Assembly: GCA_964019055.1 (NCBI GenBank)
Contig: OZ025210.1
Span: forward strand, 15,020,332 to 15,084,331
DNA: 64,000 bases
Direction of reading: 5' to 3'
From: Anthopleura xanthogrammica
Lineage: Eukaryota; Cnidaria; Anthozoa; Actiniaria; Actiniidae
The position numbers were made by a program, and so were the translations under genes. This document shows positions 5,077 to 45,786 of this stretch, piece after piece (within the stretch, counting starts at the first letter, position 1; every line of letters starts with the position of its first letter). The notes under the pieces were generated by a model. The model had not been told where the DNA came from and did no database searches. It was given only the letters and a program-made list of their open reading frames with translations.

Positions 5077-6282
5077 TTCCAGTCCTTGGGTTCTCTGGAT
5101 TATGTTTGCCTATCCATGCCGCTTCTGTTTTCGAATTATTCACTTTAAGTGATGAGTGCTGGTAAAAGGTGTTTAATGCCCTAAGAGCCATATCTAAGGA
5201 ATTTAAATCTTTAAGAAAAAGAGTGGTATCATCAGCAAAAAGTGCTTTTTATGATTTCCATCAGCTCTAAACCCATGAATCTCTTCGTTTTGCCTGATGA
5301 GAGTGGCAAGTGTTTCAATTGCAAGGATAAAGATGTACGGTGAAATAGGGTCCCCCTGTCTGGTGCCCCTCTTGATCTCAAAGAAATTTGTAGCAGTTTC
5401 GTTATTTAGAACACAAGCCATATTCTCCTTCAGAAGCACTCTAATCCATTTTATAAATTGTGGACCAAATCCAAAATGCTTTAGAGTAGCAAAAATATAA
5501 TTTCTTTCTATACTGTCAAAGGCCTTCTGGAAATCTACTGCTAATAAAATCAACGATTGGTTCATTTGAACTAAGTAATCCATAATATCTTCTATTAGAC
5601 GGATTGGTTCTTCAATATTCCTATCTTTTACAAAGGCTGCCTGGTCGGGATGAGTTAATTTATCCATGTATTTAGACATTCTATTACTTAAGGCTTTACT
5701 GCATATTTTGGATTCGACATTAATTAAGCTAATAGGTCGCCACGAGTCTAATGACCTATTATCTTTATTTGGCTTTTCTATTAGGGTTATTACTGCTTGT
5801 TTTTGTGCAGTTGTTAACTCTCCTTTGTCAAAACTATTATTTAAACAGCTAATTAGGTCTTTTCCTATACAATCCCAGAAGGCTATATAAAACTCTTTAG
5901 TAAGACCATCATTTCCCGGTGTTTTAAAAGTTCCTAATTGTTTCAAGCTAGTAAAGCATTCTGCTATTGTTAAATACCCTTCACACGATAGCATTTCATC
6001 TTGTGACAATGCCGGATTATCAATATGCTTTAGAAAATCGTAACAATCAGCCTCGGTCCCCGTACCTTTAACGTCGTACAAATATTTATAAAAACTTTCG
6101 ATAAACCTTAAGATTTCGCTACTTTTGTTTCTTCTTTCCAAAGACAAGAAATATTTATTGCTTTTTTCTCCTAGCTCTGCCCACTTAATTTTAGATCTAA
6201 GAATCAATCCATCAGTAATATAATCATTCATTACTTCAATATCTTTTTTCAAACTGTCATGTTCGGCAACATAACTCGGCAT
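5077..6282 (-). pseudogene. LINE ORF2 reverse transcriptase (frameshifted)
   Basis: The frame shows the RT blocks P-G-N-D-G-L, W-R-P-I-S-L-I-N, F-V-K-D-R-N-I, V-D-F-Q-K-A-F-D-S and G-T-R-Q-G-D-P-I-S-P. A one-base shift near 5250 moves the catalytic F-A-D-D motif into another frame, which then continues (A-L-R-A-L-N-T-F) to about 5080. The thumb and C-terminal parts are missing. Catalytic integrity is therefore lost and the copy cannot be autonomous. Confidence 0.88.
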
Positions 6283-6631
6283 CTTTTCCCAATCAGGTAC
6301 CTTTTCGATGTCCTGATTTTTTTCTTCAAGGTCTTGTTACTTTTTACGGAGTTTCTTAGTTCTAGCTTTTGCATACTTCATCGTAAATTTCCGTACTTCA
6401 TATTTAATCAGCTCCCAACGGCTTCGTGACGTGGGCATAATATATCCTTATTTGACAATTCATTTTTAACTTCCTGAATTTTACTTTTCATTTGCTCTAT
6501 ATAAGTTTAATCTTCTAAAAGTGAATTATTAAATTTCCAAAACGAAGAACCCCTTGGACTGTCTTCACAAAACGATTTAATTCTCAACGTTACAGCAAAG
6601 TGATCCGTTGAAGGAGATGGTAGAATATCCG

Positions 6632-7339
6632 TCATTTCGATATAGGGTTGTAAGTCATTTGACACAAACAAAAAAAATCTAATCTACGATACAATACCGT
6701 GTTGGACTTAGATTGCTTCCCTTGTCCTTTTCCTGACCTGGTATAACGCTTTAGTGAACTGTTTCGAATACGCCAAATATCACACAAATCAAGCTCTAAC
6801 ATTATTTCTCGTATTGTTTCAATTGTTCTAATTTTTAGCACCGGATTACCACCACTAGCCTCCAAGTCGGGGTCAAAGATGAAATTAAAATCCCCGCCCC
6901 ATATAATTTGTGTATCTTCAGGTAGATCTAGGTTTGTAATTTTTTGATAGATCAACATTAGGAGATCAACTTGACTACTTTCATCATTAGGTGCGTAAAT
7001 GTTAATTAGCAAAAAAGGACTTCCTTGGAGTTCGCACAAAGCAATTATGCATCTACCCTGAGTGTCTGTTTCTAACGATATTATCTTATGCTCTAGGTTT
7101 TTGCCAAACAAAATTCCTACACCCCTACTATTTGATGAACCATGGGAAAACAATACTTGGCCTCTAAATCGTTGAGTCCTTTGAAATTCATTGCTTTCAG
7201 TTGAATGTGTTTCCTGTAGGAATGTAATTCCTTTGTGGCCACCATGTTGGGCAATCCAACTTAGCATTTTACGACATTTTTTGTAATCCCTAAGGCCTCT
7301 TACATTAAGAGACAGAAGACCAAAATCCAACTCTTGCAT
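6632..7339 (-). pseudogene. LINE ORF2 endonuclease domain (broken)
   Basis: A 235-residue frame of the exonuclease/endonuclease/phosphatase fold. It shows L-S-L-N-V-R-G-L near residue 8, F-L-Q-E-T-H (catalytic Glu) near 40, I-N-I-Y-A-P-N near 110, and W-G-G-D-F-N (catalytic Asp/Asn) near 147. In the intact family this enzyme nicks target DNA to prime reverse transcription. The frame is lost near 6660; another frame continues with a typical S-N-D-L and S-T-D-H-F-A-V run, so ORF2 is frameshifted here. Confidence 0.85.
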
Positions 7340-8849: not shown

Positions 8850-11800
8850 GTAAGAAGGAAGAACCAAATATGATCGGTGAGCTATTGCTCTTGTTTTGGA
8901 ATTTGTTTCTTTCTTCCAGGTGTAGTTTTGCAAAGGTATATTTATAAGTAATAGCATGACTTGAGGGTGATTAGTGATTAAATGTCCCCGAAAGCCGAGG
9001 GAGGTTTTGTTGAAGTCCCGACGCCGAAGTCGCCGAACTAAACCTCCCGAGGCTTGAGGGGACATTTGATCACTAATCACCCGAAATGTCATGCTATTAG
9101 TTTGTAATATTATGATTGCCGAGGAATAAAACTGCTCTTAGGAAATATGTTAGCTTTCGTACGATGCATAAATTACAAATTTTTACAAGCTGTTGATATG
9201 CGGCATACTTTAGGGAATTTGCCTTTGTTAAATGCGACAATGGCGAATTGAACCAGCATTCATTCATTCGTGGTGCTTTATTCTAATTCACTTTGGTTGG
9301 CTTAGAGCGGTATTAATGAAGTGTTTTCAATCCGTCGTGATTACGTCATAAATAGTAGGAAAAATTCCCGATCTAGTCAACGCATGCACAAAGATTACTC
9401 AATGGGTCCCACAAGTGCTTGGGTGTTGAATAGTGTGTAGTGCAGAGTCATTGCTCAAAATTTTCGAATGGGTCGATGCGACCCAGCCATGGTCCTGGTG
9501 ATTGTCATATGAGGGACCATGCCTCATGAATAGTGAGGAGGGATATTTAGTCTAAATATCCCTCATGATTATATTCATGAGGGATATTTAGACTAAATAT
9601 CCCTCATCACTATAGAGGCTTTGCACCATCACGTGACTCGCGTAGCGTCGGTTAGCAACGGTAACTACGCCGCCATGACAGGAGGCATGTAAACCATAAC
9701 CAACAAAGTATAATAGCGAACACGATGGGAAAATTTTGCTGTGTTTTTGGCTGTGGAAAACGTTCTGAAAGAGACAAAAATGTCAGATTTTTTAATGTCC
9801 CGAAGCAGATCAAGCATCAAGGAGAAAAAACACGGAATATGTCAAAGCGAAGACGAGAAAAATGGCTTGCAAACATCCGACGAGAGGCTGTTTCAACAGG
9901 ACAAGTCAAGAACCCAATGGTTTGCTCGCTTCATTTTCACCAAGGTAGACGTTGATTTCAAATTACAACTAGCTTATTCCTTAAAAAACATGTGTGGTAC
10001 AATTCTTGATCGATGTTACGTCTACGACGACACTAATCCAGACTGGGCTCCAACGATCGCGATGGGTCACGCATCTTCTTCTGTTTCCCAACCAGCCAGA
10101 GTTTCTTCGCTAAAAAGGCACAACCGTTTGATGGAAAGATCTTCAAAAAGGCGACTGTGCTATGAACAAGCCCTTGTTAATAGTAATAAAGAAAATATTG
10201 ATGTAGAGAGACCCAAAGAAACGATACAAGAGACAGAAGACGACATATTGACCAGCACTCCACAACTACGAAATTCTGAGACACAGACTCCAGAGGCCAG
10301 TAGCATATCTGTAGAAACACAGACTGAGACCAAGACCACATCTAGATCTGTTGAGACACAAACTGATTTGACATCCATTGACATAGAATATCTTCAAGAA
10401 AAGGCAACCACAAATACAAGTTATAATGATCCTTTGAGCCCTGAAAACTTTAAAGATGAAGATAAAGCGAAATTTTATACTGGTCTACCTACAATGGCAG
10501 TTTTCATTGCAGTACTTGATTTAATTAGTCCTGGACTGTTGTATCGAAGTTCCTTGAGCAAATTCCAGCAGCTTTTGCTAACTCTTATGCGCCTTCGATT
10601 GAATTTGTCTGTTCAAGATCTTGGCTACAGATTTGGTGTTCATGCCTCTACTGTATCAAGAGTATTCCAAAGCTGCATCCAAGTCATGTACTCAAGTATG
10701 GGATTTCTGATTCACTGGCCTGATAGAGAGGAACTGAGATTGACTTTGCCAATGTGTTTCAGGGAGAAGTTTTCATCTTGTGCAGTCATCATTGACTGTT
10801 TTGAGGTCTTCGTAGACCGCCCCTCAGACTTATTAGCCCGAGCTCAAACCTGGTCATCATACAAGCACCACAACACTGCCAAGTTTTTAATTGGAATCAC
10901 ACCCCAAGGAACCGTATCATTCATCTCGAAAGCATGGGGAGGCAGGGCTTCAGACAAGTTTATTACTGAACACTGTGGACTATTAAACAACTTAGTTCCT
11001 GGAGACCTTGTTTTGGCAGATCGTGGATTTGACATTGAAGACAGCTGTGGACCTTTCTGTGCACGTCTGAAAATTCCATCTTTTACCAGAGGTAAACCTC
11101 AACTATCACCTGTCGAGATTGAAACTACAAGATCAATTGCCAATGTAAGAATACATGTGGAGAGGGTGATTGGCAGTGTGAGACAGAAGTATACGATACT
11201 AGGACATGGAGTCGCACCCATTGACTATCTGAAAGCAGACAATGGTGCACCCTGCTTGCTTGACAAGATAGCATTTGTATGTTGTGCACTGGTAAATTGC
11301 TGTAAATCTGTAGTTTCTTCAGAATAGTTGTTACTTTTTTATACATTTTTAATATAGTGATTATACTTTGGTCCACAATTTAGTAGTGTTTTAATAAACA
11401 ACAAATTGTCTACTGAAACATACTAGCTACAGTATATCACTGTGACTGAAGTAAAATCACTGCATAGTATGAACAATACCCTGTACATTATATTAATGTT
11501 GTAATTCATTTTATTAATTTTTTACATTTTTAAAATTAAAAACTATGATTGGTAGTTGTTTTTAAACAGCTTGAACATAGCTTTCAACTAGAACATACTT
11601 AAGGAATAATTATTCATTGTAAAAATCTATAAATAATAATTACGCATAAAATTTCTTAGTTTCGCATTTTCAAATTGACAATAATATGCCATTAAATATA
11701 CTCTTAAAACTTGAACAAAGTTTTCAGCTAGTGAAAGGCATAGCTAATGGGAATAATTCATTGTAATGGTTAATAAATAATAAGTTATTTACACTTAATT

Positions 11801-14800
11801 AACTTAGCATTGTCATTAGCAATATCATATACAATAAAAATATTTTGTTCAGTCATTATGGTTGTCGAGGTGGTAGGGCAGAAACTTTCTTCAGTTTCCT
11901 ACAGTCAGGACATAACCAGGCCTTATTGGCTGGTTTTCTAGACAATCCACAGCATTTCATGTGAAACTTACGAAACAGACATGCTTCATTGCTACAATTC
12001 AAAACAAGTGATTCTTCAGCCTTTACCCTACAGAAGCAATACAAAAATGTATCAGATGAGTTTTGCTGACTATTTCTTGGTGTAGTGTACCATTTTGCAA
12101 GTAGCTCTGGAAGAATAGCTAAGACATAGAGTTCTTTGGCTTTTTCTAGATGAGCAGTGAGAAAAGTAGTGTCTGGTTGAATTCTTTCAATGTGAATGTC
12201 TGATGGTGTCCATACAATAAAGTCAGCAAACATTAACTTCGTTACAGCCATTTGAAGTTGTACTTGGGAAAAATAGGGATGTCTTTTGTCAAGTTGAAGG
12301 GTACCATCTGAGGTCTTTGATAGGCACATCTTGACACCACTGTTAACAGCATCACCAATAGTTGACTCTTTCATGCAGTAAGGACACTTAATTTCTACAC
12401 ATCCCAAACCATGGCAGCTACAACAACATATGGCATCTGGGCTTGCTCCAAGGTAGGGATAGTCAGGATGTATCACAAAGCCAGAGTCCTTGGTTGTGAA
12501 GTCCTCATGCTTATCTTTCATAACCTAAAAAACAAACAAAGAATCTAAATTCAATAAATTTTACTAATGATTTATGTTTTTGTATTCTTGCTGATTGAGT
12601 TTTTAGTTTTGTGTGCTCTGATAATGCATGCACACTCCCAGCCATGGGTAATCAGAACACAAGATTGAAAACAGTAATTATATAATGTATCATACCATAC
12701 TCAGTTAAAAGAATTTCTATTCACCTGTTTGTAATGAATCAATGCCTGTTTCTCATGCATACAGCCCCAATTGGTTGCACTGGACTTAAACATTGAGCCA
12801 TAGCACACAGTCTTAATCAGGCTTACTGAGGGTGATGCTGGGTTGGTGTGACAAGCACGATGGAAGCTGCTTGCAGTTATTCTTCCCATTCTTGTTTGAT
12901 GCCAAACCTGAGACTTGCTTTGATTTCTAGTAGCCTTTTCAATTAATGTGGCCTGTTGCTCAGTAACAGTCATTCTTTGAAATACTTCTTTGGACTTAGA
13001 TACCAATTCCTTGTAGTCCAGAGTGCTATGTTGATCAGAGTAAAGTCTATTCAGTGGCTCTGGTAGATTGAGCGTGCTTGTCTTTGGGATAAAATGTTTA
13101 TTATATGGCGGAGTTAATGACAAAATTGCTGAATTTGTATCTAGATTGTACAAGCATTCGAAAAACTTCTTGATTTGGGTTGCACCTGGTACGTAACTAG
13201 CAGAAGCAGTTGTATCAGCAGCAGTAGTAGCAGCAGGAGCAGTAGTTGGAGCAGCAGTTGCATTAGCAGCAGTAGTAGCAGCAGGAGCAGCAGCAGCAGT
13301 AGTAGCAGCAGCAGAGGTATCAGCAGCAACAGTAATAGCAGCAGCAGAAGAAGAGGTAGTAGCAGCTGCAGCAGTAGTAGCAGTGGTAGTAGTAGTAGCA
13401 GCAGCAGAACTTGAAGTTGAATAACATGTAGTTGTGCAGCCAGTTCCTGAACTAAGTCCATTAATTTGAGCATCCAGTTTCCTTTTCTTACACTTTGATG
13501 AGGTAAAGTCCATCTCCCTAAGTTCTTGATAAGGTATATTTGCAACAGGTGTTGGCATCAGCCACTTACACGGAATGGACGTGCATGTTTTCATTTTAAC
13601 TATCCGAACTCCAGCCTCGACTGCAAAAAGCAATGCTCCTACATGTGAGCATGCTTCGCCCAAACCAGCCAAACAGTTACAATGTGCTGTTAGTAACGTC
13701 CCATCGTTTTTTGCTGCGATCCATGGCTTCAATGGGGTCTCGTTTAGGCGCTGAGAGTGGTTAACCTGCGAAGAAAAACAGTAAGGTTAGTCTATTATTG
13801 AAGATCACGTTCAACGGAATTTTCAGCTCGAAATACAAACCTTTGCTATTAAAATCTTTATATCACTGGTCGCTTTGCCAACGAAGACACATCTTACCCA
13901 ACCAGCAACAAAATATTGGTATGATTCAAGGCTTTTGTAGGCCTTTAGCTGCTCCTTCGTATATCGACTCGTGGAAAACAACAAGTACGTAACGATGTCT
14001 GGAAATTCAACTTCAGGCCAACATTCCATGGAATCCGGAAAAAAAATACTGCTGACATTATACGGATCGATGTTAGCTATCAATTTCAGCTTTTCCTCGT
14101 AGTGTTTACGTTCCGCAGCGGCCAAAGAGATCCGATATTTTGGTAAAGAAGGCAGCCTTTCCTTATGACCGGCCGCCATCTTGTTTTTAAATGCCTCCTG
14201 TCATGGCGGCGTAGTTACCGTTGCTAACCGACGCTACGCGAGTCACGTGATGGTGCAAAGCCTCTATTCATCCAGGGGGATGTTAGACCTTAAACATCCC
14301 TCTGGAAACAATGGATCCCGAGGTAATCATGATATTACTAAAATAAAGAAGATAATTACACATGGAGTTTAATTTGAAGAACATTTCTGATTTTTTCTTC
14401 TATCTGCTAAGTATTTCATTGATCAAATTTATTGCATCCATCCATCCAGTAATCTCATCCTGGCTTATTGATTTCGTCTGTCCTTTCTTTTTTTCGTCCA
14501 TGAAGAATTCAATTTGTCTATCTTTCTTTGCAGTTCAACCCCATGCCAGATATCGATTGGTAAACAAACTAAATGCGGGTCATCGTTCCAACCTAATGAC
14601 CATGAAATATAATATAAGAGAATATAAGCATGAATAGCTAAGGAACAAAACACTTACATTTGTATCCTTATATGTCTAGATGTGACTACTAAAGACACGA
14701 TCACTAAGCAAGTTGTTCCTTCAATGATTCCACGAGTTTCTAAAACTCCCACGACGAAAGGTAATTTAAGGTGACTGACTACTTTTGAACGTTCAATTTG

Positions 14801-17800: not shown

Positions 17801-20800
17801 AAACCTCCATTTGTAAAGAACTACAGTAACTATGAAATACCTCTAAGGGATGGACCATTAGATAGTTGATGGGGGGAGGGGTTGCGTAAATCCCCAAAAA
17901 AATATCGAACAAACCCTTAAACCTCTAAAAAATTATCGCGCACGCTCTTCTATGCGAACAAAAATATCGAGCAAGCACAGGTCAATTGAATAGCACGAAC
18001 TTTATAAATATGCTGCGAATGCCCCTCAAATCACTGGAAATTGCATTTCCGAAGGTCTCCATTTTCAAAAAAAATTCGGGGGGGGCATGGTACTAAACCC
18101 CCCTACGTTAGTAGTAGTTTGTGCATGGCACGATCCGGATTTTTGATGGGCAATGGATGGGCCGTGATGGGCTATGGATGGGCCGGTTGTTTATGTGTTG
18201 TCATGGTGACCCAGTGACGTTATATGTTCGTTAATTATTCATGACTGTACTATTGTTGGGCAAGTCTTTTGTTTTGGTATTCGATTTATAAGTCGCGGGG
18301 ATTTTGAATATTGAGCAAGGCTTTCACTGAACACCATTTATATGAGTCGCAAAAAATACATCTTTCGAAAACTGAGCTAGCAAGAATTAGAATATTTTTT
18401 CTTGGAAAAGACCATTTGCTGTATTCAGCTCTAGCGGTCATAGGGATCATTATGGAATTAAGAAGTGGTTGTGTCCTCAGTTTTGATTCTGAAATCATAC
18501 AAGAACTGAAAACCTTATTTAGATTGTTATTTTATCACATGGGTGAACGACTAAGCATCGATGTAAATCTGTGTGAATTCCGAATAATCCATGGAAGAAG
18601 ACCGAACTTTATTGAATTGCTTTCCTTGAGAGCAAACAAAGAATCCTGGCACACCATATTTCACAAAGTATGGGATCGTATGCAAGTAGAACTCCCTCCT
18701 GAGAAAGTACTTCACTTTATTCCCCACGTTTTACTTCAAGAGTATACCATACAGCCAGAACACCCTCTGTATTCTGCGCCCCATGCGGTGGTGACCAAGT
18801 ACATTCGAGATCTTTATGAGAATCACAGCTGTGAGAGAATGATTGAGTTCATGTGTGAAGAACACAGGATTAATGAACAGGCCTCGGTAGTACGCAACAG
18901 AAAATTGTATCTGAATCAGATCGCCTCAAGTTTAATCGGGCAGGTGTTTTTCCTACCAGATGGTACCTACACCAAAATAATACCCTGGGAAAAGATGTTG
19001 AAGTCTGCAAGAAATGTATGCTGTTTCTTCTCTGAGAAAAATGGTGGCTACACAGTAGTGAAACTACCTTATACCTACTTTACTATGATTCCTACCTACG
19101 AGTACAAGATCCTTGAAACGGGACAAAAGTTTACCAGTCGCGAAACTAATGCGCGTAAAGCTCTGTTACTTCACAAGAAATGCACTGAGAAACACTAATG
19201 GTTCTAATACTTTACAAGAAATATTTTGTGTAGTTTTTGTTTGTTTGTTGTATGCCAAGATTTATTCATTTTTGTTCTCAATAAAATCCATTCAATCTAT
19301 CTTGTGCTTTCAAATAACTGTCGTCAAGACCAGAGTATTGTCTACAAAACAATACGATTAATGACTCATAAACAACAAACAATGACAACTGCAAGTTACA
19401 TGCAGCTAATTATTCAAAAACGAAGGAAAGCGTTTGAAGTATAAAACCTTTATTCGTCATTTAACGGCAGTAATATCAACCATTTTTATTATTCTAAGAG
19501 TATGAACTAGTGCTCATACTTATAAGGGGAACGGTTCATCTTTACTCGTACTGATCGACACACACTTTTTCCATACTGTTTAGTCGGATTGCCTTCTAAA
19601 TAGTTTTTCAGTTCAAGATGCGGTCGTTTTCGACGTTTGGGAAGTGAATCAGGTGAGGTCAATAGCGAAGAAGGTGGTTGTATCAAAGGAGAAGGTGCCA
19701 TGAGAGATGATGTAGGAGTCTGTTGCATTTGTGGTTCAGTGGAGAGTAACAGAGGAGAGGCTGTGATAGGTGATGATGCGGGTGGAGGAAGAAAGTTAGA
19801 TGGTTCATCAGGTAGCTGTGAAATGGCAAACATCGCGATCAGCATTTCTGTCTGGCATAGGATTAGGAAAAAGTCTTGCAAACATGCAGAGGCTGGTTTT
19901 CTAGCAGAACAGAAATTGTCATCAAAATGATAATAGTTTGATTCAAAAGCACTGGTACGTGGAGGAGGGGGAGGCATTACTAAATTATCACTGCAGAACT
20001 AAACAAGAACCAGTGATAAATCGCAAGAAAATCTCGCCGAATTGCGGACGAACCATGGCTCAAATTAAAAGTTAACTTTAATTATAAAATAAACTCTGAG
20101 TTTAGCCTTCTCTGTACGAATTCTCACATGCCTGACAGGAGCGATTTTGTAAACTTTAGAAACGATTGATAAATAATAATGATCTCACAACGTTCTCATA
20201 TATTTATAATTCTTTTTCCTGCTTTGGAATTATCAGCGACAATTGTAATTTTAGAACTGAGTTTGTACGAAACGATATTTGTGATAAAATGATAAGAGTA
20301 TAATAAAAATTTCCTCGGTGCCTATCGCCTGGTGACTTGCTGAAAACATTTTGCCGGACACACAAGCTCTATAATTGCAAAGTCAATCATCATATTAGCT
20401 AGCTCGATCTGATATCTTATTCATAACAGAAGTGTATGATTAAGATTGAATTTTCACGAAATCAATTTTCAGTCTACGGAATGATATTCATAGCCCATCA
20501 GTAGGCTTCGGTTTTTATCCAATCAATATCACACTCTTTGGCAGTGAGTGTCTATGGTGAAATTTTTCGCTTTTCTTCAACATTTTGAATAAGAGTCATA
20601 AATAAACTGTACAAATAATGAATAAAATCTTTAGTACCATATCGTGTACCATAAAATGACGGGCAAGTGGTGAGCTATTATTTTCGAGATGGCTTCGGGC
20701 AAGTCCAGACCAGGCTATTGTATACAAGACAATGGAAACAGTTGAGTTGGACAAAACAACAAATCAAATCGACCGACCTTCTCCTTTATTATCCTTTCTA

Positions 20801-23800
20801 TTATTAACTTATGGTGGTCTGAACGAGCTTTAAGGTCTTTTTCTGTGATATGACCATGCGCAGGAGTTATACTGATTATATCCTAGTAGATTCTTGGACA
20901 AATCCCACACGGAGAAGGGATGCTAACAGACCGCATTAGGGGAAGATTTTGTATTGCCTGTCATCATAGCTCAGTAGATAGAGTGAAAGACTTACACGAT
21001 AACGAAAACTATGGCTACTTTATTGAAGTTAGGCACTCGGGGTTATTATGCTACCGTCAACGAATTTCAAGGACAGATAAGAGTGCATATCCGCAAGTAT
21101 AATGATGGATTGGAGAAAGGAAAAGTTCCAACAGTCTATGGAGTGGCTCTTTCTGTGGATGAATTCGAAGAATTGAAAAACGTCTTGGGGGACTTGAGCG
21201 AAATGGTCAGCACCATACCAGCCATTTGTTCGATGACCACCCTTCCAGGAGATGAAATGAAACCGATACCAAGTAACAAGGAAAAGCAACAAGAGTCCTC
21301 TGTACTGACCGAAGTGATGCACAAGCACAAAGACATTCAATATACCCTAGCTGACCAAATTCATCCTAAGATTCAAACCGATATGATTACCGAGTCGCCA
21401 CTACTATCTAAAAGCAAGAGAAGAAAAGTCGTTCGTCGCAAGAACAAACCTTACGTGAGACACTTATCGAAACACGACAAACTCCGTACATTCTTTGTTT
21501 GAATAAACTTAATCATTATTGTTATTTATCCTTGATACCACAGGTTCCTTGTGAGAAACGAAGGGACGAATGCTTTTCTGAAGTCTTAATAAATACCTTT
21601 TCCTTCAAAGTGTGTATCCATGTTTATGTACAATGATTTACAACAAAGTTGTGTAAAAACAGCCTATTGTTTCCGGCACATTGAAATTTAATGACTCCTA
21701 TCAGCGATAAACAATAAAACCAACCTGATGGATTCACAACAGCAGCTAAATTTTATTACATTTTTCATCAAAATCTAACAGATCAGACCCCTTTACCAGT
21801 TCTTTGTCTTGTTGGTCTGTACATGCACTGGTTATACAAGTTACCAAAACAATGATAAAATTCCATTATAGTTTGAGCCTCAACTTCAACCAATTAGGCT
21901 TTCTTCATAAACCGTTGCCCTCGCTAAGGAACTGAATAGCCGTATTTCAGATTTTTCTTTTCACGACGAACGATGTAAGATACCTCGAAGTCAGAAAAGA
22001 GTCGTGTTTTTTCAAGATTACATTGACTTTTAACTTAAAACAAAGGTACAAGTGCACATCGGCGAGATGATTCACCAATCTTACACATATGTTTTTACAA
22101 ATTATCGGTGTATTTAGGAGGCCAACAAGAAACCAAACAGAAAAGGCCAAGAACACCGAAGCAAGGTCAAAAGACCGGGAGGCTCTAATACTTTTTGGTC
22201 ATTGTATATTTCAGTGGCCTTCATTTTCGTACTTTAGAAGCAACGTTTTGAGCGAAAACGAGCACGGTGACCTATTGTTATCTTTTATCAAATAAATATT
22301 TACAGCAATTGAGATCATATAGCTGAATTAAAACGAATAGTTCTATCTTCCGATTTTAAGACATTATCCTGTAAAGGCAACGATATGATGTCCTATAGGA
22401 GTGTACACACATTGATAAAGCATCGCTATTTTTCAAGAAAGCTTCTTTTCTGATCAGGTTCTAGCATTTGAGAATCCACAATTCAAAGGTAGCAATGACA
22501 TCTCGCGAGTTATGATTTTTCCTCCCTCCATCTTATACTTTGAATAGTATTGGTCTCACACGCCACGTACCCAAAACGCCAAAATTTGACGAACTCATTT
22601 TTCACACTCGTTGGATCGGAAATGACCTCATCATGGTGTCTCATTTCACACACACGAGGTTTAACCACTTCTAGCAAAATGGTGTCTTATCTGTTCAGTA
22701 TTTTATTCTTTTATTCATGTCTTTTCGTAAGTACTAGCTATCCGTGTGGTGTATGTCAATGTTTCTCTCTCAAGAATTATTCAGTCCTGGATTGCTCGAA
22801 CCTTGGTCTAACGAAAATAAATACTCCGCGCAAAGAATATAACACCGTCTTGTTAAATGGTAATGCCCTGAACTGTATGGAGCTACGAAGGATCTTAAAC
22901 TATACTTCACCAGAATGGATCGACATCAGAGACAACCCTGCGTTGGATTGTAAATGTTTGGCTTACATAAAGATAAAGGTTTTGTCATCCGATTGTCTAT
23001 ATCCATCCGCCTCGAGTACATCTCCTCCTACTTCTTACCTAGACCCGACATCGACCGCCTCAGTTATCAGTTCTATTTATTCCAATACCGCTGGTATAAC
23101 ACCGACTTCTTCTAAACTTCTTTTCTCTGTACACACTTTGGATCTCAATTGGATTCTGGGGTCTTCGATTTTAGTTCCGCTAACATTTATAATAATCTTC
23201 ATACTTTACAAAGTGAAGCAACTGAAAAGAAGAAGAGTTCCTCAGCATTTTGAACTTAATTGGAAGTTTTAATATAAATCAAGAAGTGGACGAAGACGAA
23301 GAAGAAATAACACTCTTCCATGTTAGTCAAGTTTAGTTTCATCGTTTAGTTCTAATCATTTGTTACGGTTATAATCTTAAAATTGCGGGACAAAAGGAGA
23401 CGAAAGGAGACGAAAGGGACTTATGCAGAGATGTATTCACTGTCAAAGATATTCATCAGTGATAGTCTTTAGGTATAAGTTAGTTCAATACTTTCACAAA
23501 ATTCTAGAATGATTGAGTTAGATGTTCTATCATTTTCAATCAAATACTTCCCTCTAACACAAATGACTTAGATGTCTAACAAATAAGGTGGTCACTCCAT
23601 TTAACCCTCTCTTACTTGTGCATACGATGTCTGAAATCAACCCATAACGCGGAATGCTTAATTAAAATATTTTAATATTATACTTTTCCTTATATACCGT
23701 TTATGATAATTTTCACCAAATACTTTGCTACGATGCGTTCACTACCAAAAAATATTTATTGAAATCTTGTAAGTTGTTTACAAATTATAAAATGTTGGGG

Positions 23801-26800
23801 TGATTTCTTTGTTTTCATTCAATTTTAATATAAAAATGAGGGACAAAAGGTGACAAAAGGTGACAAAAGGGACTTTGAGAGAGACGTGTTCACTACCAAA
23901 CATATTTATTAAAAATCTTTGTACATTACTATTTACAATACTTTATTTAAAAAACATCCTATGAGAATTACTACTTATCAAAATATTTAGAGATTTATTT
24001 ACAAAGTGTTTTTTTTTTTTTTTTCAGATTCATAACTAAACATTTTTGACTTATTTTCACAACAAATAGGAATTGTTAACAAAGACTACCAAAGCTCCAC
24101 TAAAGAGAAGTGGATCTAGACCTAAGCTTCCATAACCTTTATGGGTACTTGCGAATCTCCGACAAATTGGGACTGAACGATATCGCAGTACCCATAAAGG
24201 TTATAAAGATTTTTAATAAATATGTTTGGTAGTGAACACGTCTCTCTCAAAGTCCCTTTTGTCACCTTTTGTCACCTTTTGTCCCTCATTTTTATATTAA
24301 AATTATCATAAACGGTATATAAGGAAAAGTATAATATTAAAATATTTTAATTAAGCATTCCGCGTTATGGGTTGATTTCAGACATCGTATGCACAAGTAA
24401 GAGAGGGTTAAATGGAGTGACCACCTTATTTGTTAGACATCTAAGTCATTTGTGTTAGAGGGAAGTATTTGATTGAAAATGATAGAACATCTAACTCAAT
24501 CATTCTAGAATTTTGTGAAAGTATTGAACTAACTTATACCTAAAGACTATCACTGATGAATATCTTTGACAGTGAATACATCTCTGCATAAGTCCCTTTC
24601 GTCTCCTTTCGTCTCCTTTTGTCCCGCAATTTTAAGATTATAACCGTAACAAATGATTAGAACTAAACGATGAAACTAAACTTGACTAACATGGAAGAGT
24701 GTTATTTCTTCTTCGTCTTCGTCCACTTCTTGATTTATATTAAAACTTCCAATTAAGTTCAAAATGCTGAGGAACTCTTCTTCTTTTCAGTTGCTTCACT
24801 TTGTAAAGTATGAAGATTATTATAAATGTTAGCGGAACTAAAATCGAAGACCCCAGAATCCAATTGAGATCCAAAGTGTGTACAGAGAAAAGAAGTTTAG
24901 AAGAAGTCGGTGTTATACCAGCGGTATTGGAATAAATATAACTGATAACTGAGGCGGTCGATGTCGGGTCTAGGTAAGAAGTAGGAGGAGATGTACTCGA
25001 GGCGGATGGATATAGACAATCGGATGACAAAACCTTTATCTTTATGTAAGCCAAACATTTACAATCCAACGCAGGGTTGTCTCTGATATCGATCCATTCT
25101 GGTGAAGTATAGTTTAAGATCCTTCGTAGCTCCATACAGTTCAGGGCATTACCATTTAACAAGACGGTGTTATATTCTTTGCGCGGAGTATTTATTTTCG
25201 TTAGACCAAGGTTCGAGCAATCCAGGACTGAATAATTCTTGAGAGAGAAACATTGACATACACCACACGGATAGCTAGTACTTACGAAAAGACATGAATA
25301 AAAGAATAAAATACTGAACAGATAAGACACCATTTTGCTAGAAGTGGTTAAACCTCGTGTGTGTGAAATGAGACACCATGATGAGGTCATTTCCGATCCA
25401 ACGAGTGTGAAAAATGAGTTCGTCAAATTTTGGCGTTTTGGGTACGTGGCGTGTGAGACCAATACTATTCAAAGTATAAGATGGAGGGAGGAAAAATCAT
25501 AACTCGCGAGATGTCATTGCTACCTTTGAATTGTGGATTCTCAAATGCTAGAACCTGATCAGAAAAGAAGCTTTCTTGAAAAATAGCGATGCTTTATCAA
25601 TGTGTGTACACTCCTATAGGACATCATATCGTTGCCTTTACAGGATAATGTCTTAAAATCGGAAGATAGAACTATTCGTTTTAATTCAGCTATATGATCT
25701 CAATTGCTGTAAATATTTATTTGATAAAAGATAACAATAGGTCACCGTGCTCGTTTTCGCTCAAAACGTTGCTTCTAAAGTACGAAAATGAAGGCCACTG
25801 AAATATACAATGACCAAAAAGTATTAGAGCCTCCCGGTCTTTTGACCTTGCTTCGGTGTTCTTGGCCTTTTCTGTTTGGTTTCTTGTTGGCCTCCTAAAT
25901 ACACCGATAATTTGTAAAAACATATGTGTAAGATTGGTGAATCATCTCGCCGATGTGCACTTGTACCTTTGTTTTAAGTTAAAAGTCAATGTAATCTTGA
26001 AAAAACACGACTCTTTTCTGACTTCGAGGTATCTTACATCGTTCGTCGTGAAAAGAAAAATCTGAAATACGGCTATTCAGTTCCTTAGCGAGGGCAACGG
26101 TTTATGAAGAAAGCCTAATTGGTTGAAGTTGAGGCTCAAACTATAATGGAATTTTATCATTGTTTTGGTAACTTGTATAACCAGTGCATGTACAGACCAA
26201 CAAGACAAAGAACTGGTAAAGGGGTCTGATCTGTTAGATTTTGATGAAAAATGTAATAAAATTTAGCTGCTGTTGTGAATCCATCAGGTTGGTTTTATTG
26301 TTTATCGCTGATAGGAGTCATTAAATTTCAATGTGCCGGAAACAATAGGCTGTTTTTACACAACTTTGTTGTAAATCATTGTACATAAACATGGATACAC
26401 ACTTTGAAGGAAAAGGTATTTATTAAGACTTCAGAAAAGCATTCGTCCCTTCGTTTCTCACAAGGAACCTGTGGTATCAAGGATAAATAACAATAATGAT
26501 TAAGTTTATTCAAACAAAGAATGTACGGAGTTTGTCGTGTTTCGATAAGTGTCTCACGTAAGGTTTGTTCTTGCGACGAACGACTTTTCTTCTCTTGCTT
26601 TTAGATAGTAGTGGCGACTCGGTAATCATATCGGTTTGAATCTTAGGATGAATTTGGTCAGCTAGGGTATATTGAATGTCTTTGTGCTTGTGCATCACTT
26701 CGGTCAGTACAGAGGACTCTTGTTGCTTTTCCTTGTTACTTGGTATCGGTTTCATTTCATCTCCTGGAAGGGTGGTCATCGAACAAATGGCTGGTATGGT

Positions 26801-29800
26801 GCTGACCATTTCGCTCAAGTCCCCCAAGACGTTTTTCAATTCTTCGAATTCATCCACAGAAAGAGCCACTCCATAGACTGTTGGAACTTTTCCTTTCTCC
26901 AATCCATCATTATACTTGCGGATATGCACTCTTATCTGTCCTTGAAATTCGTTGACGGTAGCATAATAACCCCGAGTGCCTAACTTCAATAAAGTAGCCA
27001 TAGTTTTCGTTATCGTGTAAGTCTTTCACTCTATCTACTGAGCTATGATGACAGGCAATACAAAATCTTCCCCTAATGCGGTCTGTTAGCATCCCTTCTC
27101 CGTGTGGGATTTGTCCAAGAATCTACTAGGATATAATCAGTATAACTCCTGCGCATGGTCATATCACAGAAAAAGACCTTAAAGCTCGTTCAGACCACCA
27201 TAAGTTAATAATAGAAAGGATAATAAAGGAGAAGGTCGGTCGATTTGATTTGTTGTTTTGTCCAACTCAACTGTTTCCATTGTCTTGTATACAATAGCCT
27301 GGTCTGGACTTGCCCGAAGCCATCTCGAAAATAATAGCTCACCACTTGCCCGTCATTTTATGGTACACGATATGGTACTAAAGATTTTATTCATTATTTG
27401 TACAGTTTATTTATGACTCTTATTCAAAATGTTGAAGAAAAGCGAAAAATTTCACCATAGACACTCACTGCCAAAGAGTGTGATATTGATTGGATAAAAA
27501 CCGAAGCCTACTGATGGGCTATGAATATCATTCCGTAGACTGAAAATTGATTTCGTGAAAATTCAATCTTAATCATACACTTCTGTTATGAATAAGATAT
27601 CAGATCGAGCTAGCTAATATGATGATTGACTTTGCAATTATAGAGCTTGTGTGTCCGGCAAAATGTTTTCAGCAAGTCACCAGGCGATAGGCACCGAGGA
27701 AATTTTTATTATACTCTTATCATTTTATCACAAATATCGTTTCGTACAAACTCAGTTCTAAAATTACAATTGTCGCTGATAATTCCAAAGCAGGAAAAAG
27801 AATTATAAATATATGAGAACGTTGTGAGATCATTATTATTTATCAATCGTTTCTAAAGTTTACAAAATCGCTCCTGTCAGGCATGTGAGAATTCGTACAG
27901 AGAAGGCTAAACTCAGAGTTTATTTTATAATTAAAGTTAACTTTTAATTTGAGCCATGGTTCGTCCGCAATTCGGCGAGATTTTCTTGCGATTTATCACT
28001 GGTTCTTGTTTAGTTCTGCAGTGATAATTTAGTAATGCCTCCCCCTCCTCCACGTACCAGTGCTTTTGAATCAAACTATTATCATTTTGATGACAATTTC
28101 TGTTCTGCTAGAAAACCAGCCTCTGCATGTTTGCAAGACTTTTTCCTAATCCTATGCCAGACAGAAATGCTGATCGCGATGTTTGCCATTTCACAGCTAC
28201 CTGATGAACCATCTAACTTTCTTCCTCCACCCGCATCATCACCTATCACAGCCTCTCCTCTGTTACTCTCCACTGAACCACAAATGCAACAGACTCCTAC
28301 ATCATCTCTCATGGCACCTTCTCCTTTGATACAACCACCTTCTTCGCTATTGACCTCACCTGATTCACTTCCCAAACGTCGAAAACGACCGCATCTTGAA
28401 CTGAAAAACTATTTAGAAGGCAATCCGACTAAACAGTATGGAAAAAGTGTGTGTCGATCAGTACGAGTAAAGATGAACCGTTCCCCTTATAAGTATGAGC
28501 ACTAGTTCATACTCTTAGAATAATAAAAATGGTTGATATTACTGCCGTTAAATGACGAATAAGGGTTTTATACTTCAAACGCTTTCCTTCGTTTTTGAAT
28601 AATTAGCTGCATGTAACTTGCAGTTGTCATTGTTTGTTGTTTATGAGTCATTAATCGTATTGTTTTGTAGACAATACTCTGGTCTTGACGACAGTTATTT
28701 GAAAGCACAAGATAGATTGAATGGATTTTATTGAGAACAAAAATGAATAAATCTTGGCATACAACAAACAAACAAAAACTACACAAAATATTTCTTGTAA
28801 AGTATTAGAACCATTAGTGTTTCTCAGTGCATTTCTTGTGAAGTAACAGAGCTTTACGCGCATTAGTTTCGCGACTGGTAAACTTTTGTCCCGTTTCAAG
28901 GATCTTGTACTCGTAGGTAGGAATCATAGTAAAGTAGGTATAAGGTAGTTTCACTACTGTGTAGCCACCATTTTTCTCAGAGAAGAAACAGCATACATTT
29001 CTTGCAGACTTCAACATCTTTTCCCAGGGTATTATTTTGGTGTAGGTACCATCTGGTAGGAAAAACACCTGCCCGATTAAACTTGAGGCGATCTGATTCA
29101 GATACAATTTTCTGTTGCGTACTACCGAGGCCTGTTCATTAATCCTGTGTTCTTCACACATGAACTCAATCATTCTCTCACAGCTGTGATTCTCATAAAG
29201 ATCTCGAATGTACTTGGTCAGCACCGCATGGGGCGCAGAATACAGAGGGTGTTCTGGCTGTATGGTATACTCTTGAAGTAAAACGTGGGGAATAAAGTGA
29301 AGTACTTTCTCAGGAGGGAGTTCTACTTGCATACGATCCCATACTTTGTGAAATATGGTGTGCCAGGATTCTTTGTTTGCTCTCAAGGAAAGCAATTCAA
29401 TAAAGTTCGGTCTTCTTCCATGGATTATTCGGAATTCACACAGATTTACATCGATGCTTAGTCGTTCACCCATGTGATAAAATAACAATCTAAATAAGGT
29501 TTTCAGTTCTTGTATGATTTCAGAATCAAAACTGAGGACACAACCACTTCTTAATTCCATAATGATCCCTATGACCGCTAGAGCTGAATACAGCAAATGG
29601 TCTTTTCCAAGAAAAAATATTCTAATTCTTGCTAGCTCAGTTTTCGAAAGATGTATTTTTTGCGACTCATATAAATGGTGTTCAGTGAAAGCCTTGCTCA
29701 ATATTCAAAATCCCCGCGACTTATAAATCGAATACCAAAACAAAAGACTTGCCCAACAATAGTACAGTCATGAATAATTAACGAACATATAACGTCACTG

Positions 29801-31471
29801 GGTCACCATGACAACACATAAACAACCGGCCCATCCATAGCCCATCACGGCCCATCCATTGCCCATCAAAAATCCGGATCGTGCCATGCACAAACTACTA
29901 CTTACGTTCGCCCGCCTTTGGCGGTATTTAGCCTCCTTCCCAAAAAAAAGTACCATCGACGGTCCCTTTATAATGCATAATTGCATTGAAAATCAGAATA
30001 TAATACTGATTAAACCAAAATTCGGACTATAATGTTCAGTTTTCAATCCTGAAATAGTAGTAGTTGTCATCTCTTTCAGTAGTACGAGTGGTTTCAAGAA
30101 GCCAGTTAAATAAATTATAATTGTACATGTTGATTTTCTCGCATGTTTAGTCAATGTCGACTTCACATTTTGCCCAAAAGCCCTCCTTGATTAACTAATC
30201 AGTAATTTTGCCCTATTGATTCCATACTAGTTTTTAAAAAACAATATCGCGCAAGGTTATGATGTGCAAAAAAAAAAAAAAACTGAAAACGTGCTGGGGG
30301 TGGGACAAAAAAATAAATATCATGCAACTAAATTATTAAGTCCATAATTAACTGTTTATCAAAAATATTGCATAATTTACCGCCTAAAAGTTTCGCGCTA
30401 GCTCTTTTAAAGTTGCTCTCTCAGTAATCAGGCTTACTAGCGTAATAAATCGAGTGCTTGATATAAAGAGAATTCAAATTTCAATTTCTCCCAAAATAAC
30501 AGCTTTTAGAACTTGAAAATACACAAAAAGTTTTAACATTGAAGGCTCAATTCACTGGTAATTTGTTGGGAAAATGTTTTTTTCATCCGCCGTAAACTAC
30601 CGATATTTCTTGAATATTACAGTCAAGCTCTCTTAATAAGCGTAGGGAAACCACGACGCGTAGCGGAGTGGTTTTCCAGCTTCTCAAGTGTTCTCCCAAC
30701 ATCCCAAGTTTTTAGATCAGAGTATATAACAGGAAAACTGTCTTATATTACTTTTATAGAATAATAACTCAATAAACATGACGACTTTGCTCCAAAAACA
30801 TCGCTTTATTTTCAAGATGTAATTACAAATTTGCCCTACATTGTCAAGATACAAAACGGAACAATCACAAACTTGATAAGAATAGCCGTGTGCGAAGAGA
30901 TCAAACGAAATGTTTGTGATTTTAAAGTCGAATTTTCCGCACAAAAACTGCTTTTATGTCCAAAAATAGCAATCAAGCTCATTGGAAAAGAGTTAGATTA
31001 ACTCTCAATGGAAACGAAGACTGCTGTATCTTAGAAAATCATCACATCTTGGGTTGATAAAATCAAAAATGGATCAAATCAAGCAAAATTCATAAATTAT
31101 TTGAAGTTCAAGTCAAGACACGAGGGTATTTACTGATGAAAAGTTTGAAGTTTAATGCTGCTTATGAAAGGAGATGTTAATGTTTTTAATTTTACATGAC
31201 TGAAGTAAATAATCCAGAGAAATTGTGGACTTGATTGGTTCTGCTGGTTGGCCGTCAGGTTTAGTTCACTTTCGTTGCCTTCAGGGGCCCGTGCCAAGAC
31301 ATCACTGCACTGCTGCAGTTGAATTGAAGAGGGACGATAATTATAATGCCTCAGGCTTTGCTCGTTCCTGTGGCCCGAGATGGCCATGAACTTCCATTTT
31401 TTGTGTAAACGATGGTCGTGAAGAAAGGATCATATACTTTATAATGAATTTTTGCGCTATAGAAACATTAA

Positions 31472-42186: not shown

Positions 42187-43647
42187 GCTAGTCCTAGTTC
42201 TAAAGTTCTGAAATTAGCCGCGCCTGTTATCGTTAGACCGTTAATGACGATCATCAATGGTTCAATTCCCTCACAAATATTTCCCGATGAATGGAAAATT
42301 GCCAGAGTAACTCCCTTGCATAAAAAAGGATCGCGTAATGAGCTGGATAACTATAGACCTATTTCCATATTGCCTGTAGTCAGCAAAGTTCTGGAAAAGA
42401 TTTTATATGAACAACTTTCGAACTATTTAAGATCTAAAAATATACTCTCAGATCACCAATTTGGCTTCAGACAGTCCCACTCAACTGCTTCGGCGTTGCT
42501 GGATTGCACAAACGAGTGGTTTGTTAACATGGACTGTGGCCTAAAAAAATTGGTTGTATTTTTAGATCTAAAAAAAGCATTTGACACCATAGATCATCAA
42601 ATCCTGGTAAACAAACTTGAGGCCTATGGTGTTACAGATAGTACAGTGAAATTATTGTGTTCATATTTAACAACTCGAAAACAGAAATGTCAGGTGAATG
42701 GTATACTCTCGAGTTCCAGGCAAATTTGTTGCGGGGTCCCTCAAGTTTCAATTCTTGGACCTCTTCTCTTTCTTGTCTACATAAACGACTTACCAAATTG
42801 TCTAGATTATACCACACAGAGAATGTTTGCTGACGATACCAACTTAACTGCTAGTGGTAAATATTTAGAAGAAATGGAAGTGCGGGTGAACTATGATCTT
42901 TCTAATGTTAAAAAGTGGCTGTTAGCAAATAAATTGAGCCTCAATGTAGCAAAGACCGAATTTATGCTCATTGGCGCGAAACCAAAATTGAATAGCCTCC
43001 ATGAGCAACCCAAAGTTACAATTGGGGATGAACCAATCAAGAGAGTCTACGACTAAAAGACCCTAGGTGTGCGAATTGATGAATCCCTTACATGGGATAA
43101 GCATACCGATGATATTGCCAAACAAATCTCATGTGCAATAGGCGCTATGAAGAGGCTCAAGGAGTTTGCTGACCGTAGCACACTCATTTCTGTATTTAAT
43201 GGTCTAGTTAAACCCCACTTCAGCTACTGTCGTGAAGTCTGGGATTCGCTTGGGGGTGGTCTTGCCCAAAGACTACAACGTCTACAAAACAGATGCACTA
43301 GATTGATCATGAACTGCAAGAATGAAGCAGGTCAATCAGAGATCGCAATGAGCGAACTGGGCTGGACCACCCTAGCGGAACAAAGAGACCAAGTAAAGGC
43401 TAAATTGATGTTTAAAGTGTCAAATGGCCTAGCACCTTCAAGACTACAACAACTTTTCAAGGATTCGCATGCCTCGAGCAGTAACTACAGGTTGAGAAAC
43501 ATGACAAACAAATTTTCTCGTCCCTCTGTACCCAAAACGGAATTCTTGAAAAACAGTTTTAGTTATAGCGGTGCTAAGCTATGAAATGCACTACCAGAGG
43601 AAATACGAAGCTGCAAATCGCTTACATCCTTTAAACGAAAATTGTAG
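42187..43647 (+). pseudogene. CR1/L2-like LINE reverse transcriptase fragment
   Basis: A 5'-truncated RT reading V-L-K-L-A-A-P-V-I, then F-P-D-E-W-K, N-Y-R-P-I-S-I-L-P, F-L-D-L-K-K-A-F-D-T and F-A-D-D-T-N, with a C-terminal N-A-L-P-E-E-I-R. Two in-frame stops interrupt it: TAA at 43054-43056 between R-V-Y-D and K-T-L-G-V, and TGA at 43582-43584 where the family normally has Trp before N-A-L-P. The endonuclease and ORF1 are absent. It differs in family from the LINE at 4955-8315. Confidence 0.9.
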
Positions 43648-44270: not shown

Positions 44271-45786
44271 ATGGCTAGTAATAGCCCAACATTTGAGTTT
44301 GGGTTTCTCAACTTTGAAGCGGATTCAGAGAACGTGAATGTATCAGAACTTGAGAAAGATAAACAAAACAAAACTGGATCAAATACGAATCGCTTCGCTA
44401 ATCTAACTGAGCGAGATTTAGACAAAATTATTGAAGACAAAGCATCAAAAAAGACAAAGTTAAACACTAACTGGTGTGTTTCTACATTTAAGGGTAAGTT
44501 TCAGATTTTAAACAGTTTTTTTTCTAGTTAAAATTGATAAAGTAAACTTACGAAATATTGAAACCTGACGATAAACAATGAACGAAAACAAAAGTACTTA
44601 CACAATAAATTGATTTAAAAGTTTAATATTACCTCTTGTCTTGTAATTTACAGCATGGTGTAAAGAGAAAAATATACAAACACAGTTGGAAAACATGACG
44701 ATTGGTCAACTTGACGCAAATCTGAGAAGATTTTACGCAGAGGCTAGGAAAAAGGATGGCGAGACGTACGGCAAGAAGACCCTACTAGGTTTCCGCCACG
44801 GCATCGAAAGATACCTTAATCAGCCACAGTTCTCAAGAAATCTTAAGATGTCGACAGACCCCAGTTTTTCAAGATCAAACTCGATGCTGGACGCACAGCT
44901 AGTTCAACTCAAGCGGGTCGGCAAAGAAAACAGTCAACACAAGCCAACGATTGAAGATGAAGACCTGGAGAAGTTAAAAACATCAGAATCACTCTCCCTA
45001 AATGGCCCTCTGTCTCTTCTGCGAAATGTCTGGTTTAATATCATTCTCTTTTTCTGCAGACGAGGCCGTGAAGGGCAGCGAGAACTGCAGAAATCCAGTT
45101 TTAAACTTGAGATCGATGCGAGTGGGAGAAATTACGTAACGATGGCTCACGATGAAGTGTCTAAAAACCACCCAGGTGGCCTGAAAGATACCAGCAGCTC
45201 GGAAAAATATGCAAGGATGTATGAGACGGAAAGTCCCAAAGACGGTTATAAAGCTGTAAAGCTCTATATTTCCAAGCTCAACCCCAAATATTCAGCATTC
45301 TTCCAGTATCCCAGCCGAAACTGGGCGCCTTCCCATGACGTTTGGTACGACAACAAGCCGCTCGGCATCAATAAACTTGACAATATGATGAAGGAAATTA
45401 GTCAAGCAGCCCAACTTTCAAGAGTTTATACTAACCACTCCGTCCGTGCCACAGCAATTACCCTCTGGTCAAATGCTGGAGTTCCTAACCGCCATATAAT
45501 GGCAATTTCTGGCCATAGAAATGAGCAGAGCTTGGCTCACTACAACACTCGTCCTTCGACCGCTCAACTTCTGCACTGCAGCGAAGTCCTTTCCAGCCAT
45601 ATTCAAGGGTCCACGGCGTTAGTTCCCGTTCAGCAATCAACCAACACAGCTTCTAGGTCCGCCACCATATCAGTAAACCATGAGTTGAGGCCGATGATGA
45701 GCAGTTTTGAATCCATTTTCAGCAATTGCACCATTCAAAATGTGCAAGTCGTCGTCTCTTCAGCTTCGGCGAATCCTTCAAAATAA
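44271..45786 (+). CDS. Crypton-like tyrosine recombinase (DUF3504 type)
   Basis: Two exons join in phase: 44271-44493 and 44654-45786 (GT-AG), giving 451 residues. The splice rebuilds S-T-F-K-A-W-C-K-E-K-N, the conserved start of the N-terminal core-binding part (D-A-N-L-R-R-F-Y, R-K-K-D-G-E-T-Y). The catalytic part shows R-R-G-R-E-G-Q-R-E-L (first Arg), N-H-S-V-R-A-T-A (H-x-x-R) and [12 protein letters not shown] (His and Tyr nucleophile). Crypton-derived recombinases integrate or excise circular DNA, and domesticated relatives exist in animal genomes. This copy looks intact. A 13-of-14 inverted match (CCTTTATAACATAG near 44093 and CTATGTTATAAAAG near 46061) brackets it, possibly by chance. 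Confidence 0.88.

Follow-up and report, generated by a model that had tools for sequence, protein, structure and literature searches.

Within a 64,000-nucleotide stretch of the Anthopleura xanthogrammica genome (the window; contig OZ025210.1) lies an 11.8-kb palindrome, at window positions 18110-29902. Taken as a whole, the evidence gives a probability of roughly 0.78 that this element is a symmetric end-duplication ("snapback") derivative of a Polinton/Maverick, formed by fold-back copying, integrated in trans and trimmed at its centre. A preliminary description made from the letters of the window had called the palindrome a mobile element, and this identification holds: the arm at 18110-23713 has 4 mismatches over 5604 positions to the reverse complement of 24299-29902, the element ends are AGTAGTAG...CTACTACT, a perfect 6-bp target-site duplication (TSD), TACGTT, flanks them, and other copies are present in the genome. 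In the repeat search the inverted arms span 18105-23713 and 24299-29907, the outermost 5 bases being part of the TSD, and the symmetry continues inward, with 23821-23923 pairing with 24202-24304 (99%). The layout is as follows:

18104..18109, no strand: left TSD, TACGTT (flank read)
18110..23923, plus strand: left arm including its inner continuation (repeat search, arm alignment)
18110..18312, plus strand: 203-bp terminal repeat, in common with the C7 and C4 Polintons at 88-89% (genome comparison)
24202..29902, minus strand: right arm, the mirror image (repeat search, arm alignment)
29700..29902, minus strand: mirror terminal repeat, identical to the left one (arm alignment)
29903..29908, no strand: right TSD, TACGTT (flank read)

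An assembly artefact is unlikely at this locus, because the flanks are different, the TSD is exact, the arms carry single-nucleotide polymorphisms (SNPs) and one-sided deletions, and the same structure recurs at other loci. As a separate observation, the two terminal repeats are about 10% off those of sister copies, where the first 1191 bases overall are only 3-4% off. The same variant occupies both ends, as if another end had been acquired and then copied across.

The palindrome belongs to a family. Searches of the 289.8-Mb host genome score the best candidates only, making all counts lower bounds. The first 1191 bases of the arm return at least 53 matches, many in inverted pairs. The remainder of the arm recovers palindromes at the window and at copies B, C, D, E and G/H, along with truncated forms at F and K; I and J, for which the match list and a single end locus apiece are the source, are single arms. 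Among these are:

Copy B, C5:14356426-14368403 (L003, L004, L039, L046, L047): inverted flanks instead of a TSD
Copy C, C3:2693960: TSD matching at 5/6
Copy D, C13:7404610: TSD AGAGCA
Copy E, C13:6959172: same flanks as D, counted as its duplicate
Copy G/H, C12:7417022 and C12:8044861-8055809 (L011, L013, L043): TSD TACGAA
Shortened derivative F: TSD GACCGG

The palindromes thus occupy about five independent loci, with a TSD that is perfect at three, 5/6 at one and unreadable at one. Palindromic copies with different 6-bp TSDs, which the preliminary description had suggested seeking, are therefore present (D and G/H). Across all two-ended elements read, with E omitted as a duplicate and single ends not counted, the TSD is perfect in 11 of 14 (window, D, F, G/H, L035, C9, L036, C4, C7, L037, L052); in the others it is 5/6 (C), imperfect (L038) or lacking (B). 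G/H appears to be one palindrome split at arm position ~1385-1395 into two pieces 0.63 Mb apart, both with TACGAA, seemingly by a rearrangement or a scaffold error.

Sequence comparison identifies the element as Polinton-derived, in agreement with the relationship first proposed. Its first 203 bases are 88-89% identical to both ends of C7:6965327-6979199, a two-ended 13.9-kb Polinton with the TSD ATGAGC. In Pfam searches, the open reading frames (ORFs) of this C7 Polinton include rve and chromodomain matches over the cut-off and double jelly-roll capsid and A32/IVa2-type ATPase matches under it. The order integrase, minor capsid, PW-like, capsid, protease is that described for vertebrate Mavericks in part of PMC8097293, with the names minor capsid and PW resting on this order only. 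The window element also has the (AG)n or (AGT)n end motif given for Polintons in the same portion of that paper. Like Polintons (Polintoviricetes), it combines a 6-bp TSD, (AGT)n ends, homologous terminal repeats and Polinton genes or their remnants; unlike them, it is 11.8 kb long, lacks polymerase, integrase and a whole capsid gene, and carries one and the same end on both sides.

The outer 1.7 kb of the arm corresponds to one end of another Polinton member. In L038 and L052, a gene here called R295 and an ATPase fusion gene lie at one end and 180-aa (amino-acid) and 269-aa genes, of the L035 type, at the other. One end has been duplicated in inverted form and the other lost: the window element is the R295 end twice, and the palindrome L035 is the other end twice. 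The preliminary description had also proposed asking whether single arms adjoin polymerase B or integrase genes. Elements with related ends do carry integrase, capsid and polymerase genes, but a single window-type arm beside polymerase or integrase was not found; instead, this arm type occurs at one end of the asymmetric two-ended deletion derivatives L038, L052 and C79. The two ends of ordinary two-ended elements diverge by 3.6% (C7), 6.8% (L038), 7.6% (L052) and 0.9% (L037).

The genes and other features of the window element are:

18452..19198, plus strand: R295, a terminal Polinton gene of unassigned function, 248 aa if read from the likely start, with a longer frame opening at 18311
19507..19977, minus strand: C-terminal remnant of the Polinton ATPase fusion gene (156-aa ORF), 91% aa identity to residues 376-477 of the L038 2929-4362 product
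19828..20637, no strand: 810-bp segment, with full or partial copies at 17 other sites in the genome (81-94%; genome search)
21011..21502, plus strand: PC4 (PF02229) gene, in other elements of the host genome just inside the terminal repeat
22679..23272, plus strand: small membrane protein gene, 197 aa, Cys-rich and leucine-rich-repeat-like by eye, with no significant family or PDB match
24740..25333, minus strand: mirror copy of the small membrane protein gene (arm symmetry)
26510..27001, minus strand: mirror PC4 gene (arm symmetry)
28035..28505, plus strand: mirror copy of the ATPase remnant (arm symmetry)
28814..29560, minus strand: mirror copy of R295 (arm symmetry)

Four intact ORFs had been claimed for each arm. 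The ORFs are indeed mirrored, but the 156-aa frame is a remnant rather than an intact gene, and two others are probably shorter than first given: for the 295-aa ORF the likelier start is 18452 (248 aa) and for the 240-aa ORF 22679 (197 aa), these start codons being picked by likeness to relatives or by eye. Polymerase B and integrase, noted early as absent, have no match in the element. Among 17 proteins used as queries, none detects a polymerase, integrase, capsid or protease gene there; the four protein-primed polymerase B pieces have no match in it, no rve integrase is found in it, and none of 114 genomic rve matches lies in the window family. Likewise, none of 21 genomic PF03175 matches falls inside a palindrome, a profile that also misses the C7 Polinton. 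Of the capsid, ATPase and protease genes, the ATPase tail and two fragments of a 270-aa gene are all that was found. With none of these genes whole, the window element is classed as a non-autonomous derivative and not as a Polinton proper. The earlier phrase "self-contained palindromic derivative" holds for palindromic and fails for self-contained, polymerase and integrase being absent.

In this genome PC4 is a Polinton accessory gene: both L065 and L066 have it immediately inward of the terminal repeat, L065 along with an ATPase gene. The small membrane protein gene is confined to loci of the window family (19 of 19 genome matches). R295 and PC4 have no relative among the viral contigs scanned, comparison with PHROGs gave nothing of weight, and the AlphaFold2 model of R295 is poor (mean predicted local distance difference test score 61.5). 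No terminal inverted repeats were seen in the 810-bp segment.

Other Polinton ends have undergone the same change. L035 (C7:15407371-15412690) is a 5.3-kb palindrome with 2 differences over 2608 arm positions and the TSD GGGGGC, which doubles the 180-aa-gene end of a genome with an internal deletion and is centred inside a tandem repeat. L062/L063 (C9:11085305-11099242) is a 13.9-kb palindrome with arms of ~6.5 kb (99.95% over 6525) and the TSD CCCGAT, from a distant Polinton lineage (integrase at 48% aa identity). In each arm there are matches to integrase, to the 270-aa gene, to capsid and to protease (adenovirus endoprotease, over the cut-off); the right arm carries a 233-bp tandem duplication near its end, and the initial half of the ATPase gene lies in the 562-nt loop. 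Compared with other copies in the genome, it is 79% identical across most of the 3.2 kb searched, with 94% in parts. As the L035 and C9 arms differ from those of the window family, they have separate origins. Together with the window family, they show that palindromic Polinton derivatives, which probably depend on a helper, have originated at least three times in this genome.

Asymmetric forms occur as well. In L036 the duplicated end covers 813 bp with 1 difference (TSD AATAAA), and in C4 it covers 582 bp with 0 differences (TSD CTCCAT), as against an end likeness of 225 bp in C7. The suggestion of a new class of non-autonomous element is accordingly upheld for non-autonomous and not for an isolated class: there are three palindromes with different arms (the window family, C7:15407371 and C9:11085305) and the two asymmetric duplications.

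Two inverted integrase pairs, C11:6249872/6260996 and C13:4192292/4205733, picked by eye from the list of integrase matches, were tried as palindromes of the same kind and rejected. The left arm of the C11 pair (1300 bp searched) is 95% identical to C18 and 92% to its own partner; that of the C13 pair (900 bp searched) is 92% identical to another copy and ~85% to its partner. Therefore, not every head-to-head pair is a palindrome of this kind.

The centre of the palindrome is informative about how it may have formed. It contains:

24060..24201, no strand: two inverted pieces of the Polinton 270-aa gene (L033 2547-3359), a minor capsid gene by gene order only
24143..24193, no strand: fold-back tip, a short stem of GGGTAC(T)TGCGA, a 28-nt loop, then TCGCAGTACCC (tip comparison among copies)

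The symmetry of the arms extends inward as far as this stem and loop. Of six copies compared, all but C share the tip (window, B, D, E and G, with slight changes in B), which makes four independent loci when D and E are counted as one. At the matching site in its 270-aa gene, the C7 Polinton has GTAC(A)TGCGA, 28 nt and then TCGCAGTAC. Around the tip the copies are lopsided, by amounts taken from arm-pairing offsets. In the window the right arm is shorter by 113 bp near the centre, with a 6-bp overlap at the junction, plus ~211 bp beside the tip; the 585-nt "spacer" is for the most part a centre that these deletions have unbalanced. The left side is the shorter in B (~218 bp), D/E (~232/239 bp, ~49 of which is a tandem duplication on the right) and G (~177 bp), and in C the right is shorter by ~1.1 kb and the tip is lost. 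All five insertions thus differ in their one-sided change, and the differences are read as trimming of an unstable centre after integration.

Arms are alike within copies and unlike between them. Within copies the differences are 2/2691, 0/2689, 1/2685 and 1/2685, with 6/2590 in B; between loci they range from 12 (B against F) to 127 per ~2600, leaving out H (arm broken at ~1385) and the duplicates D and E, which differ from each other by 0-2. This contrast indicates that the arms have been homogenised.

A fold-back in protein-primed replication, followed by hairpin passage and help in trans, is the route we infer. The arm begins as one Polinton end (terminal repeat, R295 and the tail of the ATPase gene) and then runs into other Polinton-derived and extra DNA, comprising PC4, the small membrane protein gene and a piece of the 270-aa capsid-module gene. 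During extrachromosomal strand-displacement replication, the growing strand may fold back at a short inverted repeat and copy itself to its starting end, producing a hairpin that then becomes a linear palindrome carrying an origin on either side. The palindrome would be replicated and integrated in trans by other Polintons, and passage through the hairpin would keep both arms identical. After integration, the near-perfect centre would be unstable, and its repair would leave a one-sided deletion peculiar to each locus. The common tip in 5 of 6 copies argues for one fold-back event, after which the element would have spread as a palindrome. Helper dependence is probable because the polymerase and integrase genes are missing; open integrase frames are present elsewhere in the host genome, and Polinton polymerases are reported, in part of PMC11071308, to have a terminal-protein domain. 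That palindromic Polintons form a lasting satellite lineage is a more tentative proposal, falling a little short of even odds. Such a lineage would have two equal origins, its own cargo (PC4 and the small membrane protein) and a helper's polymerase and integrase, with a hairpin in each cycle keeping the arms identical and the information of one arm carried twice.

Other routes to the same structure need to be weighed. Formation within the chromosome, from an integrated Polinton broken near a short inverted repeat, folded back and duplicated in inverted form, is improbable. Inverted chromosome duplications do arise from palindromes (PMC3315005, in part), and copy B resembles such an event: its flanks are an exact inverted duplication over 1500 of 1500 bp, with a 601-bp piece ~5 kb out, and not at 20 or 60 kb. 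This may be a palindrome-induced chromosome duplication or an assembly fold. However, a chromosomal reaction would duplicate the flank, and the window, D, L035 and C9 palindromes stop at the Polinton end with a perfect TSD; distinct flanks with a perfect TSD already contradict it for the window copy, and an identical tip at four unrelated insertions also speaks against it. The process in PMC3315005, as far as that source goes, fits copy B and would explain a later change there, not the origin of the family. Recombination outside the chromosome between two opposed Polinton genomes, by annealing or end joining and with no fold-back copying, is also unlikely, though less so. The arm is pieced together from several Polinton segments, which makes recombination between genomes likely, and the L036 junction has no clear homology. 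Against this, at the fold-back point the C7 relative carries a short inverted repeat whose loop is 28 nt, as intrastrand fold-back predicts, and both arms are near-identical, as though one strand was the template. Head-to-head insertion of two Polintons, or an assembly error, is very improbable indeed. Head-to-head Polintons do exist (the C11 and C13 integrase pairs), and copies B and G/H could stem from assembly trouble at palindromes. Yet the left arms of those pairs are nearer to another genomic copy than to their partner, whereas the palindromes are 99.9% identical within and less to the rest; a single TSD encloses the whole palindrome, and SNPs and one-sided deletions oppose a simple read-folding artefact.

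One step of the proposed fold-back route has a rival of its own, namely that arm identity comes from gene conversion between chromosomal arms and not from replication. Long chromosomal palindromes can convert their arms, and conversion could account for the concerted arms here. This is rather doubtful, since conversion has erased neither the one-sided deletions at the centre nor a left/right difference that D, E and G have in common next to the tip. The identity of the window terminal repeats, ~10% off sister copies, fits conversion and replication equally.

Several further points weigh against the fold-back reading. G/H counts as one element only if a 0.63-Mb disruption, or a scaffold error, is accepted, and B has inverted flanks in place of a TSD. 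Copy B shows the least contrast between within-copy and between-locus differences (6 within, 12-16 to F). In the C7 relative the stem amounts to 5+4 bp with a bulge, short enough to be a chance occurrence; the L036 junction is as stated above, and the central deletions could predate insertion. An undeleted Polinton with the R295 end was not found in the genome, so that the immediate parent is not in hand. The C7 polymerase frame is broken and the pieces tested lack a polymerase Pfam match; one piece has a match at 1e-10 to a PF03175 locus. The cargo shows weak and mixed coding constraint: where defined, the ratio of nonsynonymous to synonymous polymorphism (pN/pS) of R295 is 0.2-1.3 among family copies, R295 of copy J is interrupted by two in-frame stops, and the small membrane protein gene has 2 inserted nt in C and E. 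The pN/pS values are too weak for selection on the cargo genes to be claimed. Finally, the palindromes are observed as integrated genomic copies; an extrachromosomal form and mobilisation are predictions of the fold-back route.

Polintons are thought to replicate like adenoviruses, and an extracellular form has been difficult to observe. Symmetric defective adenovirus genomes (Ad12 SYREC, whose arms are said to contain extra DNA) and the hairpin or palindromic plasmids of yeast pGKL1 are reportedly protein-primed linear replicons with one terminus at both ends; these differ from the window family in that they neither integrate with TSDs nor form a genomic family. The closest published analogue is the snapback genomes of adeno-associated virus (AAV): according to part of PMC8235507, this virus produces snapbacks of both symmetric and asymmetric type from either end, together with deletion genomes. 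As here, the left or right part is duplicated in inverted form, symmetrically or asymmetrically, with internal-deletion genomes alongside. In contrast, AAV is a single-stranded DNA virus whose defective genomes, in that account, were read from particles, whereas the present family is integrated in a genome and of the protein-primed kind. In the open PMC literature, among the titles and abstract openings listed and with most subscription papers outside this scope, no palindromic Polinton was found; "palindrom" is absent from the main texts of PMC6431247, PMC12220804 and PMC11071308.

The simplest reading of symmetric and asymmetric end duplications with clean TSDs is that they are replication errors of a linear, two-origin genome outside the chromosome, subsequently integrated. 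If true, the mode of Polinton replication would become testable from sequence. It would also implicate a Polinton integrase in mobilisation in trans, and the long palindromes would form a natural series of entries into chromosomes, each scarred at its centre in its own way.

Elsewhere in the window, inspection by eye suggests a candidate two-gene DNA transposon at 9741-13732 (a transposase ORF with YqaJ-like and SWIM-like ORFs), candidate reverse transcriptase/endonuclease fragments of non-long-terminal-repeat (non-LTR) retrotransposons at 5203-7339 and 42244-43584, and a candidate tyrosine-recombinase-like ORF of 366 aa at 44686-45786.

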